Part shown: positions 49,192-54,086 of the stretch, piece by piece | Layout of the letters: every line of letters begins with the position of its first letter | How positions within the stretch are numbered: position 1 is the stretch's first letter | Source of the DNA: an uncultured Eubacteriales bacterium | GTDB lineage: Bacteria; Bacillota; Clostridia; Peptostreptococcales; Anaerovoracaceae | DNA length: 55,668 bases | Assembly: GCA_902763505.1 (NCBI GenBank) | Contig: CACWSO010000013.1 | Coordinates: forward strand, 1-55,668 | Reading direction: 5' to 3' | Position numbers and translations under genes: made by a program | The notes under the pieces: generated by a model | Databases searched by the model: none | What the model was told of the DNA's origin: nothing | The model's input: the letters and a program-made list of their open reading frames with translations, nothing else

Positions 49192-50832
<1,641 letters not shown>

Positions 50833-50896
50833 GCCGGCCAGTCCAGGCGCTGAATTTGTGACAGTTCCGTAGTAGATCTGTCAAAATATAGAGAAA

Positions 50897-50940
50897 CAAA
50901 CAACCCCGGTCTGCAGATTCGCGGATCGGGGTTTTGTTGT
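50897..50940 (+). terminator. Intrinsic terminator after groEL
   Basis: AACCCCG (50902-50908) pairs with CGGGGTT (50927-50933), with further pairing in the loop and outside (ACAAAC with GTTGT); TTTTG follows the stem. Confidence 0.82.
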
Positions 50941-50946
50941 GGGGTT

Positions 50947-51222
50947 AAAGTACAAAACATGGAACTGAACTCCATTGAATATTCGTAAGTGTTTTGTACT
51001 TTTGTCATTCCGCATCAGGAAAAGTACAAAAGATAAAGCTTAGAACAATTGTACCTCCGTAAAGTGTTTGTACCTTTTGTTTTTTATTATAAGAAAAGTA
51101 CAAATACTAAAGCTGTGACAGTTGAAACTTCGTCAGACTTTTGTACTTGCATCAAGGAATCTATAGAAAAGTACAAAACAATGGGAGACAAAACCCTGAA
51201 ACTTCGTCAGGCTTTTGTACTT
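50947..51222. repeat. Array of four palindromic repeat units, period 74 bp
   Basis: This fills most of the 514-nt gap between groEL and the next gene. Units: 50947-51002, 51021-51077, 51095-51148, 51168-51222. Each starts AAAGTACAAA and ends TTTGTACTT (10-12 bp inverted repeat; unit 2 has one inserted C), and each has CGTMAG-like sequence just before the right arm. Starts are 74, 74 and 73 bp apart; the 17-19 bp between units are unlike each other, as are about 18 bp after each left arm. The 28 bp at the right end of units 3 and 4 differ at only two positions. This is not a CRISPR array: repeat arms are short and the units themselves are palindromic. Confidence 0.85.
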
Positions 51223-51266
51223 GAGAGAATTGATTATTAAGAAATGAGACATCATTCAAAGCATTG

Positions 51267-51295
51267 TTGTAAAATAATATCAATAATGGTAAAAT
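51267..51295 (+). promoter_or_regulatory. Predicted promoter of the nuclease-like gene
   Basis: TTGTAA (51267-51272), 17-nt spacer, TAAAAT (51290-51295). GTAAAATAA is repeated at 51269 and 51289. Confidence 0.5.
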
Positions 51296-51346
51296 AAGGA
51301 ATCAAAGGCGCTCTGCAATTGAAATAATGGAGCAGGAAAGAAGAAA

Positions 51347-52249
51347 TTGAAGACGAAGGATAACTATACTAGGAAATCAACACTTGTTTTAACGCCCGTC
51401 ATTGCGAAAAGTCAGATTGATAGAATCAATAAAAGAATTAGCAGTGAATTGTATGAACTTCGCGATGAGCATAAGTCATTGCCAGAAGGAAAGCTTTATA
51501 TAAGATATCGCGGAGATTTAGTGCTTTTTACGGAACGATGCAAAGGCAAGCTATTCGGCATAACTAGAAATCGTGATTTGGTGCACAAGTTGGCTCGCCG
51601 TGAATATCTACAGCTTCAGATGGCTTTTATCGATGAAATTTTAGAGGAGGGTTGGACACCGAGAACAGAAAAAGTCATCGCCCGACTCTACCCTCAAATC
51701 GAAACTCTTCTAAAGAAATACGAGGATGCGGGATTGGACATTGACCAGATCACGATGACACCGAACCAGAGAATATGGAATTCAGACCGGCACAGCCAGA
51801 AGGAGAACAGGAGAGAGGAACTGATTTATCCAACGAGGGGAGGGGTATATATGCGTACGCAGTCAGAGAGGTTTATCGGGGACCTTCTTGAGAGACTGCA
51901 TATTCCGTACCGATATGAAACTCGTGTAACGATCAACAATCGGGCATACCATCCGGACTTCATTATTATGCTGCCTGATGGGAGACTAGTGATTCTAGAA
52001 CACGTGGGCAGGATGGATTTGAGGGAATATGACGAGGACCTCATTACACGACTTCAGGCTTATGACAGCATAGGCCTGATGATTGGAAGAAATGTTTTCA
52101 TGACCTTTCATCACGATATCCGGGAGGAGGCCAGAGTTAAAGAAGTATTGTTTCAGGTGCTCACCGCCAGCCCGCCATGGAACAAAACATTGGTTAGCGT
52201 CGCAAGAAAAGCGGGCTGTCAGATTGAACAGCCCGCATACGGATCATAA
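51347..52249 (+). CDS. PD-(D/E)XK nuclease-like protein with E-H-x-G active site
   Basis: A 300-residue protein. Residues 1-160 are basic and helical and may bind nucleic acid. The C-terminal domain has a restriction-endonuclease-like pattern: Glu174 (TQSERFIGDLLERLHI), Glu191 (YRYETRV), Asp204 (HPDFIIM) and Glu218-His219-x-Gly221 (ILEHVGRMD), where the usual E-x-K is E-H-x-G. Such proteins are known in Clostridia as uncharacterised relatives of DNA-cutting enzymes. TTG 51347 with AGGAAAG is the only plausible start. It is A+T-richer than its neighbours and lies directly behind the palindromic array. Confidence 0.68.
   Translation: MKTKDNYTRKSTLVLTPVIAKSQIDRINKRISSELYELRDEHKSLPEGKLYIRYRGDLVLFTERCKGKLFGITRNRDLVHKLARREYLQLQMAFIDEILEEGWTPRTEKVIARLYPQIETLLKKYEDAGLDIDQITMTPNQRIWNSDRHSQKENRREELIYPTRGGVYMRTQSERFIGDLLERLHIPYRYETRVTINNRAYHPDFIIMLPDGRLVILEHVGRMDLREYDEDLITRLQAYDSIGLMIGRNVFMTFHHDIREEARVKEVLFQVLTASPPWNKTLVSVARKAGCQIEQPAYGS
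52207..52236 (-). terminator. hslO terminator, inside the 3' end of the nuclease-like gene
   Basis: GCGGGCTGT (52211-52219) and ACAGCCCGC (52228-52236) form a perfect 9-bp stem; on the minus strand it is followed by TTTTCTT. So it ends minus-strand transcription although it is also coding for the last residues of the + strand gene. Confidence 0.75.
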
Positions 52250-52267: not shown

Positions 52268-53176
52268 TTATTCCGCTTCTTGTGTGTTTCGTTGCTGCAG
52301 AATCTCCTGCAGCTCATCGGTGCCGAACTTATAGGCGGAGTTGCAGAAGAAGCATTTGACTTCGAGCTCTTCGTCATCGGAGATCATGGACTCCAGGTCA
52401 TCGGTGCTCAGGGTGGCGAGGGCATGGGAAATGCGCTCGCGGGAGCAGTTGCAGTGGAAGCGGATAGGCTTTTCTTCGGTGATGATGAGATTCATATCGC
52501 CGAGGATGAGACGCAGGATCTCTTCCGGGCCGAGGCCGCGTTCCATCAGTGTGGTGACTGGTTCCAGCTCAGCCAGCTTGGCTTCCAGGGCTGCGATGAC
52601 TTCTTCCTGTGCGTCCGGCATCAGCTGGATGATGAAGCCGCCTGCGTGAAGGACGCTGCTGTCTTTACCGATCATGACGCCGAGGGCAACAGCACTTGGC
52701 GTCTGTTCAGAGACGGTGAAATAATAGGCGAGGTCTTCGCCGATTTCGCCGGTCTGCAGTTCGACCTGTCCGTTGTATGGCTCTTTGAGGCCCAGGTCCA
52801 TGCTCACGGTCAGAATACCCTGTCCGATGGCACCGCCCACGTCGAGCTTGACCGCGCCGCTGAGCGGATCCTCGCGGGGAGGAATATCAACGGAAGGATT
52901 TCCGGGGAATCCCTTCACATTACCGTGAGAATCTGCGGTAACAGTGATGCTGCCGATGGGGCCGTCGCCTTTCATGGTCAGTGTGATCAGGTCGTCGTCG
53001 CCTTTCATCATGGATCCCATCATGGCACCTGCCGACAGGAGTCTGCCGAGAGCTGCCGTGACAACAGGGAAGGTCTTATGTATTTCGCGGGCCTGCGCCA
53101 CCATTTCCGTGGAATCTACTGCAAAAGCTCTGATATATTCCTGGGCGGCGGTTGCGCGTATGATTTTATCGGTCAT
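52268..53176 (-). CDS. hslO: Redox-regulated chaperone Hsp33
   Basis: A 302-residue holdase activated by oxidation and unfolding. The zinc site is C-x-C (FHCNCSRERI) with C-x2-C (VKCFFCNSAY) near the C-terminus; the core shows GRLLSAGAMMGSMMKGDD, GNVKGFPGNPSVD and AGGFIIQLMPDA. Start ATG at 53176 has AAAGGA upstream; the longer frame adds 17 atypical residues. Transcribed with the DMT transporter, 22 nt apart. Confidence 0.95.
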   Translation of the reverse strand: MTDKIIRATAAQEYIRAFAVDSTEMVAQAREIHKTFPVVTAALGRLLSAGAMMGSMMKGDDDLITLTMKGDGPIGSITVTADSHGNVKGFPGNPSVDIPPREDPLSGAVKLDVGGAIGQGILTVSMDLGLKEPYNGQVELQTGEIGEDLAYYFTVSEQTPSAVALGVMIGKDSSVLHAGGFIIQLMPDAQEEVIAALEAKLAELEPVTTLMERGLGPEEILRLILGDMNLIITEEKPIRFHCNCSRERISHALATLSTDDLESMISDDEELEVKCFFCNSAYKFGTDELQEILQQRNTQEAE

Positions 53177-53198
53177 ATACGTAGTATCCTTTCGCGTT

Positions 53199-54086
53199 TT
53201 ATTCTTTATTCCTTTCAAGAAATGCAATGGTTGTAACAGCTATCAGTATTATAACACCGCCGATGATTTGTGTGGCGGTCAGGATTTTGCCGAAGATGAA
53301 AATGGAGAAGATGACCGCTGTGACCGGCAGTACATTTTCAAAGGCAGCGACCAGCGTCGTGGAAAGTTTGCCGACCGCGTAAACATATCCGAATTCACCC
53401 ATGATAATGCAGACGATGGAAGTGGCCAGCGTAACGATGATTCCGGCAGGGGTCAGTGTGACAGGCGTGTGTGTGATCGCTTGACTGATAATAACAGTAG
53501 GAATCTGTACGATGGTTCCTGAGTAGAACAGCCCTGTCATGAGCGTCAGCAGATCGTATTTATCGTAGAGCGGTTTCACAAGGACGAGATAGCAAGTCCA
53601 GGAAATGGCAGCTGCGAACATGGCGATAACGCCAAGCGTACTGATTCCCATCGGTTCGCCGGACACCAGCAGAAATACGCCTAGGATCGATGCGATGATG
53701 CAGATGACTTTGAGAGGAGTGATTTTGTTCCCGAAGAAAATCCGGTCGCCAAACATGCCGAAGATCGGAACGGTCGCCATAATGAGTGATGAAAACGACG
53801 CGGAAGTCAAGCCGGTTCCCAGATTCTCAATGGTAAAATAGGCAGCCATTCCGATGGCTCCGGAAAGAAAGATGCGGGGCATATCTTCTCTTCTGAAATG
53901 CGGGCCGCCTTTCAATATAAAGACACCTGCAGTCAGAACAATCACGCCGATGAGGAGTCTGATGAGCGTGAAAACGGCAGGGGACATGAACTGCATCATA
54001 TATTCGATAGCGATGAAGTCAAATCCCCAGATGAAATTCACGCATAGAATTGCGAGCAATGGTTTCAAAGATGTGTTTGTTGTCAT
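53199..54086 (-). CDS. EamA/DMT-family exporter
   Basis: A 295-residue membrane protein with about ten helices in two EamA repeats (residues about 8-140 and 150-290). The start LLAILCVNFIWGFDFIAIEYM and ALVIALISWTCYLVL-like second-half opening fit the drug/metabolite transporter superfamily, which exports amino acids and other small molecules. The substrate is unknown. AGAAGAGG lies before the ATG. First gene of a two-gene minus-strand unit with hslO. Confidence 0.85.
   Translation of the reverse strand: MTTNTSLKPLLAILCVNFIWGFDFIAIEYMMQFMSPAVFTLIRLLIGVIVLTAGVFILKGGPHFRREDMPRIFLSGAIGMAAYFTIENLGTGLTSASFSSLIMATVPIFGMFGDRIFFGNKITPLKVICIIASILGVFLLVSGEPMGISTLGVIAMFAAAISWTCYLVLVKPLYDKYDLLTLMTGLFYSGTIVQIPTVIISQAITHTPVTLTPAGIIVTLATSIVCIIMGEFGYVYAVGKLSTTLVAAFENVLPVTAVIFSIFIFGKILTATQIIGGVIILIAVTTIAFLERNKE

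Follow-up and report, generated by a model that had tools for sequence, protein, structure and literature searches.

A stretch of 55,668 nucleotides from an uncultured Eubacteriales bacterium, referred to here as the window, carries a regular array of palindromic repeats directly before a gene for a nuclease-like protein. The question raised by this locus is whether array and gene belong together and, if they do, what the array is for. An initial annotation, made from the letters alone, had described four palindromic units starting 74, 74 and 73 bp apart, and this observation was confirmed at positions 50947-51222 (Table 1). The left arms follow one another at intervals of 74, 74 and 73 bp and the right arms at 74, 73 and 74 bp, and the arms of unit 1 form a 13-nt pair with 100% complementarity. 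The linkers of 17-19 bp given in the annotation stand, whereas its interior of about 18 bp does not, the distance measured between the arms being about 30-34 bp. In the whole 2.29-Mb genome, the exact pattern AAAGTACAAA-N(25-50)-TTTGTACTT has 4 matches, all inside the window array; these represent three units, with unit 1 scored on both strands and unit 2 not an exact match. The reversed pattern, used as a control, gave 0 matches in the same 2.29-Mb genome. The array lies between the terminator of a gene that we take to be groEL and the 300-aa gene, which is followed by a presumable hslO/Hsp33-like gene. Inside the units a loose core like CTTGA(A/T)ACTACGT was seen by eye, in the window (50947-51222) and at L035, L038, L039-L041 and L227, despite the differing arms. 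On the gene strand this core runs forward where the array is upstream and backward in those downstream arrays that were inspected.

Table 1. Coordinates of the array, the adjoining gene and the flanking features in the window.
Feature	Position	Strand	Remarks
groEL (presumed)	49195..50832	+	left flank; ORF; adjoins the element or the empty site in relatives
groEL terminator-like hairpin	50902..50933	+	array starts 13 bases further on
Array unit 1	50947-51002	.	arms 50947-50959 / 50990-51002
Array unit 2	51021-51076	.	imperfect arms; right arm TTTGTACCTT
Array unit 3	51095-51149	.	
Array unit 4	51168-51222	.	
Exchanged block (array, promoter region and N-terminal half)	50947..51687	.	differs as a unit from G013/G064; C-terminal half near-identical; limits by eye
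Two promoter-like matches	51246-51275, 51267-51295	+	outside the array; consensus matches only
300-aa family protein	51347..52249	+	variable N-terminal half and E-H-x-G nuclease-like domain
N-terminal half, about aa 1-113	51347..51687	+	hypervariable; proposed arm-reading part; boundary by eye
Motif residues	51866..52009	+	E174 (51866-51868), D204 (51956-51958), E218-H219-x-G221 (51998-52009)
hslO/Hsp33-like gene (presumed)	52268..53227	-	right flank; ORF

The gene next to the array starts with TTG, no ATG being close to the frame start. The annotation had given it a promoter of its own, and two promoter-like sequences (consensus matches only) do lie between array and gene. It had also described a PD-(D/E)XK-like protein with an altered E-H-x-G motif, and the frame proved to be a real one with E174, D204 and E218-H219-V220-G221. 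Among the members of the family, R170 and E174 are found in 120 of 120, D204 in 119 of 120, E218 in 118 of 119 and G221 in 119 of 119; H219 is present in 109 of 119, with Y in the remaining 10. The acidic residues of the PD-(D/E)XK fold, E...(P)D...E, are therefore present in the family. The lysine of E-x-K is absent, as only 1 of 119 members has K at position 220, where the others mostly have L, F, C, A, E or V. Searches of Pfam, NCBIfam and PDB gave weak matches only, including T7 endonuclease I (to RS..E...Y.PDF; PDB, E 0.31) and a TnsA-like N domain in 2 of 27 members (Pfam/NCBIfam, best E 0.015). Models of the PADLOC collection matched over the C-terminal domain, namely PDC-S68 in 27 of 27 members (best E 1.2e-34), HEAT_CxxC_PDDEXK in 13 and PDC-S69 in 10. 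The C-terminal, nuclease half has a dN/dS of 0.01-0.11 in eight close pairs, and the protein is thus under purifying selection. The N-terminal half is much more variable and matched no named DNA-binding domain in Pfam, NCBIfam or PDB. Its residue pattern had raised the suspicion of an AP2-like integrase arm-binding domain (Arm-DNA-bind_4), which was unsupported: hhalign gave a probability of 0.2% against the integrases of the genus (one of the nine integrase rows, L234, was misread and kept in), and there was no Pfam hit.

A search with the single protein found relatives in 33 of 61 genomes, that is, in 33 of the 37 genomes of the window's genus and in none of the 24 others. The restriction to the genus suggested by this result was withdrawn after a profile search across the class. 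The family profile A1, built from 27 members, has at least one match in 46 of 49 genus genomes and up to 15 in one genome, among the matches listed; two of the 15 are on duplicate contigs. In the order, 33 of 198 genomes were matched, 26 of them from the window's GTDB family and 7 from elsewhere in the order, and in these 7 only the C-terminal part was matched, inside open frames of 728-1304 aa. In the class, 51 of 391 genomes were matched, and other families, at least five in number (f25, f37, f42, f53 and f79), contain frames of about 250-350 aa to which most of the profile aligns. Long frames of about 700-1300 aa from other families (G151:C40, G107:C100, G188:C59 and others) likewise contain matches to a profile of the E-H-x-G domain. 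Goat gut or horse faeces is given as the source of 4 of 14 named family loci. No relative was confirmed among viral contigs, and phages and plasmids held no full-length relative; hits in 3 phage records and 2 plasmid records covered 29-40% of the protein. The window protein is one of a multi-copy family that occurs in several families of the class, including gut Clostridia.

Arrays were sought at 120 loci: 107 lie in the genus (picked from 134 among the matches listed), the other 13 in further genera of the family. A simple detector (at least 2 units, 9-base arms, at most 1 mismatch) found arrays in 50 of 230 gene flanks versus 4 of 196 segments lying 1.7-2.4 kb away; dinucleotide shuffles gave 0 of 460, and the tiles of window positions 1-50000 gave 0 of 79. 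With a stricter score the counts were 35 of 234 flanks versus 1 of 179 far segments, and the single far match is a genuine second array. Arrays common far from the gene, which the initial annotation had named as evidence against a link, were accordingly not seen. A phased and more sensitive test, applied to genes with both flanks, found an array at 61 of 110 genes versus 6 of 49 far pairs, with L074 and L080 scoring on both flanks. The remaining 49 of 110 genes had no array in this test; at four loci (L104, L113, L135 and L137) an array is visible by eye though missed by detection. Two loci of one assembly, L063 and L064 (G065:C25 and C34), have identical copies and flanks on two contigs and are probably a redundant assembly. 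L064 was left out of the phasing, neighbour-orientation, arm-correlation and covariation counts and was kept in the detector, strict-score, side and phased-test counts.

The pairing extends further. In other families 7 of 17 loci passed the strict score, five of them regular (L206, L208, L210, L218 and L224) and two poorly phased (L209 and L223), and L222, one of two further loci of the window's own family, also passed. Parts of two genomes, 400 kb each, were scanned for arrays. For the complete genome G216, which is of another genus, 11 of the 20 stretches were picked around family matches. Three arrays with a score of at least 6 and a coherence of at least 0.9 were found, all within 0-119 bp of a family ORF, and 5 unphased hits of score at least 6 were located elsewhere. 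A strong array stands at 3 of the 10 family ORFs of G216 and at none of the other 7. In the window's genome, 3 of 1540 tiles reached the strict score, one of which is phased and lies at a contig edge (G000:C6). Arm sequences differ widely from locus to locus. The association of an array with a dedicated nuclease-like protein, as claimed in the annotation, thus recurs with different arms in the genus, in the family and in other families of the class. Homologues normally lacking an array, the other point that the annotation had set against a link, are not the rule among the 110 testable genes; the picture is less clear elsewhere, with 3 of 10 in G216 and 7 of 17 in other families.

Several further arrays were recorded. 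At L162 (6693-6941, G016:C153) a second array without a family gene of its own lies about 2 kb from the family gene, between what we take to be LacI-type and sugar-kinase-like genes. In arms (ATTCTATA) and in spacing (72, 61, 72) it equals the gene-side array. At L227 (about 122-480, G070:C58) a five-unit array with window-like arms (AAAGTACAAAAGCC) was seen by eye at the contig edge, directly upstream of a presumed pyruvate-kinase-like gene, with no family gene in contig bases 1-1977, the part examined. The phased array at L190 (123-290, G000:C6) has the arms CTATACC/GGTATAG at 53-bp spacing, and the first 100 bases there give the impression of an insertion-sequence end. A different repeat array (GCGGAACAA) with a period of about 91 bp by eye, out of helical phase, lies at L243 (13202-13589, G216), 2.4 kb from a family gene.

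The side on which the array lies is not fixed. The 35 strong arrays (L064 included) comprise 18 upstream and 17 downstream of the gene. Their opposite flanks hold 5 arm matches versus 4.4 expected, L053 being almost without an opposite flank; the rule is a single array, placed to one side of the gene. A two-ended transposon was unsupported, as matching sites at both ends were not found over the 35 arrays. The gene next to the array on its outer side has its 3' end towards the array in 22 of 29 determinable cases among 34 arrays.

The spacing of the arms follows the turn of the double helix. In 34 arrays, from which the near-identical duplicates L037 and L064 had been removed beforehand, 229 same-strand arm distances of up to 130 bp cluster near 41, 52, 62, 73, 83, 93, 104, 115 and 124 bp, with a few outside (such as 37, 67 and 80). 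The best period is 10.4 bp with a phase of -0.1 bp and a mean resultant length R of 0.715, a value that none of the 5000 jittered controls attained (maximum 0.232). A Rayleigh test on a single distance from each array gave a p of 1.4e-8. Spacing classes are mixed within single arrays, for example 72, 61, 72; 52, 52, 73, 52; and 74, 84, 73. The seven arrays of other families have a mean vector at 10.4 bp of 0.61 at 27 degrees, with L208 (75-bp spacing) and L210 (73-86-bp spacings) about 2 bp off whole turns. Whole-turn spacing places the half-sites on one side of the double helix.

The annotation had also considered that the arms fold in RNA or single-stranded DNA, or that neighbouring units pair. 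If the arms were kept as RNA hairpins, compensated changes would be expected within a unit, and these were mostly not seen. Arm deviations in 99 units comprised 88 one-sided and 14 two-sided (7 matching), versus 88 one-sided and 9 two-sided (4 matching) in 91 control pairings across linkers. There was no G-U excess (15 of 88 versus 20 of 88 in the control), and nothing in Rfam matched 50800-51400 up to E 1. The arms resemble double-stranded protein sites that share one face of the DNA. RNA, single-stranded DNA and pairing between units are unnecessary to the account, since the arms behave as double-stranded, one-face sites, and this part of the annotation is disfavoured.

The site between groEL and hslO is found in several states. 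The order groEL-array-gene-hslO is common to the window (G000), G035, G013 and G064. In G014, G020 and G070 the site is empty: array and gene are both missing, and the terminator is separated from the hslO stop by 17, 10 and 17 nt. In G019 the gene is inverted, and in G007 an inverted broken gene is accompanied by a well-kept array with different arms, TTTGTCAAA/TTTTGACAA (by eye). Presence and absence of the kind expected of an insertion sequence or transposon was therefore found at one locus, groEL-hslO, and no clear target duplication was seen there by eye. Of the 11 close pairs compared, 8 agree in at least one flank. Three pairs (L048/L053, L070/L073 and L069/L081) have C-terminal halves that are 83-84% identical and dissimilar flanks, so that copies change place over longer times. 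Recent movement was not seen, since all pairs with more than 95% C-terminal identity among the 120 loci are at matching flanks (the groEL locus, L063/L064 and L144/L145).

Occupied sites differ in a block. The window protein and those of G013 and G064 have 99% amino acid identity over aa 135-270 versus 47% over aa 16-112; the window has the arms AAAGTACAAA, G013 and G064 the arms CAACCAC. Between the window and G064, dS is 0.22 in the C-terminal half, and pS is 0.83 (saturated) in the N-terminal half. The N-terminal half was therefore replaced and did not simply evolve fast, and array and N-terminal half were exchanged together at this locus. In G035 the arms are CAACCACTG and the N-terminal half is 65% identical to that of G013. 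Arms are also kept (ATTCTATA) in L047/L055, with N-terminal identity of at least 70% and C-terminal identity of at least 0.6. In L048/L053 the N-terminal halves are 71% identical and both have the arms TGCCACAA (the L048 array is weak); these loci have no flank similarity, and the arms therefore went with the protein there. Over 741 pairs of 39 arrays, five weaker arrays having been added by hand, arm similarity of at least 0.6 is found in 3 of 4 pairs at N-terminal identity of at least 0.55, in 3 of 11 at 0.42-0.55 and in 23 of 726 below 0.42. The partial rank correlation of arm similarity with N-terminal identity, given C-terminal identity, is 0.090 (reached by 107 of 2000 permutations), which suggests a weak tracking over all pairs. 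Arms are also common to pairs with unlike N-terminal halves, L047/L071 (30%) and L036/L054 (22%); these either argue against a simple code or arose by chance, the arms being short and AT-rich.

From exchange, phasing and linkage, we infer that the arms are bound by the adjacent protein. The array is probably the cognate double-stranded DNA binding array of its neighbour, with the N-terminal half reading the arms and the nuclease-like domain positioned or restrained. Each arm would be a half-site whose sequence is read by the variable N-terminal half; there are 8 half-sites in the window, and 6 to 11 were detected in strong arrays. With units spaced by whole turns, bound subunits would lie on one face and touch, forming a cooperative complex, and the conserved PD-(D/E)XK-like domain (E...PD...E-H-x-G), if active as a nuclease, would thereby be held at a defined place. 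Such docking may restrain or position the nuclease, so that each locus would be self-contained and distinct in specificity from other copies in the cell, presumably to the benefit of the cell. A further reading of the same complex, which we consider improbable, is that of a "DNA antitoxin": the array would act as a decoy by which the nuclease is kept inactive, locked in the phased complex, and destruction or loss of the array would free a stable nuclease and kill the cell. Breakdown of the host chromosome by a phage, or replacement of the locus, could be the trigger. If true, this would explain the array on either side, arms and spacing that are kept while interiors drift, and the different arms of coexisting copies. 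It would also explain the joint absence of gene and array and a possible array-only locus.

Other readings have been weighed against cognate binding. A mobile or homing-like element, in which the nuclease recognises its own array as the element end or cuts empty alleles and gene and array spread into intergenic gaps, is doubtful. It would agree with a groEL-hslO site that is empty, occupied or occupied by an inverted gene (G019, and broken in G007), with the matches in nearly all genus genomes and their high number in one, with related copies at dissimilar loci and with neighbours that turn their 3' ends towards the array, as with insertions beyond terminators. However, one array on one side leaves no two-ended element, the most similar C-terminal halves are found only at matching flanks, full-length relatives are absent from the viral contigs, phages and plasmids searched, and the groEL site has no clear target duplication by eye. 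Of the "mobile" system proposed in the annotation, the alternative states of one site and the related copies at unlike loci stand; dispersal of the arms and a full-length plasmid, phage or viral relative were not found. Its "defence" system has a single basis, the match of the C-terminal domain to models of candidate defence proteins.

Autoregulation, with the array as the operator by which the protein sets its own expression, would suit the upstream half of the strong arrays and the window, where the array is just upstream of the promoter-like sites. It is nevertheless quite improbable, as an autoregulated operator has its sites at the promoter of the gene. With 18 arrays upstream and 17 downstream, ordinary operators are unlikely; the other flank is at chance level, and the window array does not overlap the promoter-like sites. 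A transcribed hairpin array, with units folding as RNA or single-stranded DNA and being processed or used as guides, would agree with arms that are able to pair and with the folding considered in the earlier annotation. The lack of a clear compensatory excess over the control and of a G-U excess, a spacing locked to 10.4 bp that RNA does not need, and the lack of an Rfam match over the array region make this reading very improbable. The idea that the arrays are independent genomic repeats, merely collecting in the same gaps as the genes, draws on the gene-less array of L162 and on gene-less arrays on two contigs, both at contig edges (G000:C6; G070:C58, bases 1-1977). It is just as improbable in view of the single far segment, the almost complete lack of hits in tiles and shuffles, the position of the 3 strong phased arrays of G216 next to a family gene, the exchange of array and N-terminal half together at one locus and the joint absence at empty sites.

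Known systems resemble this gene-array pair in part. REPtrons, as described in PMC8266576, consist of a palindromic repeat that co-evolves with a cognate DNA-processing protein (REP and TnpA-REP, or RAYT), different pairs having different repeats; TnpA-REP is an HuH protein that acts on single-stranded REP, and REPs are present at high copy number. Palindromic sites, a cognate protein and repeats that differ from pair to pair are also seen here. The differences are a PD-(D/E)XK-like protein, sites that are apparently double-stranded and phased, and a window arm pair that is local only. No HuH/Y1 transposase domain is present among the Pfam/NCBIfam hits of 27 members up to E 1, and dispersed REPtron-like copies of the window arm pair are absent from the window's genome. 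Recognition of folded single-stranded DNA, as in REPtrons, was addressed indirectly: clear compensatory changes are lacking and helical phasing is present.

Iterons are helically phased rows of binding sites beside an initiator gene, usually direct repeats at an origin, whose specificity diversifies between coexisting systems. The likeness lies in a phased row of sites adjoining the gene of its (here proposed) binding protein; in contrast, the half-sites here are inverted and lie by a nuclease-like gene, and no replication family is among the domain hits. In HsdS-type restriction-modification a variable recognition part is exchanged and the catalytic part is constant, as is the case here, but the block exchanged here includes a DNA array, and the neighbours are presumably groEL- and hslO-like, with no methyltransferase. 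The C-terminal E-H-x-G domain is shared with PDC-S68, PDC-S69 and HEAT_CxxC_PDDEXK of PADLOC, although the PDC-S68 model has about 1200 positions and the window protein matches only 1089-1186 of 1221 (about 100). CRISPR arrays are regularly spaced palindromic repeats beside a nuclease-like gene, a description that would also cover the window; here, however, only split arms are conserved, interiors drift and spacing is quantised by helical turns. There is also no Rfam match over 50800-51400, and no cas gene among the window's neighbours, which are presumably groEL- and hslO-like. A literature search that covered few subscription journals or preprints gave no title or abstract opening describing such a gene-array pair. 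Overall, gene and array look like an undescribed kind of protein-DNA pair. If binding is confirmed, the family would supply a series of naturally occurring protein/site pairs whose specificity can be read, and with it a case, open to testing, in which a nuclease is positioned or restrained by DNA itself as its partner.
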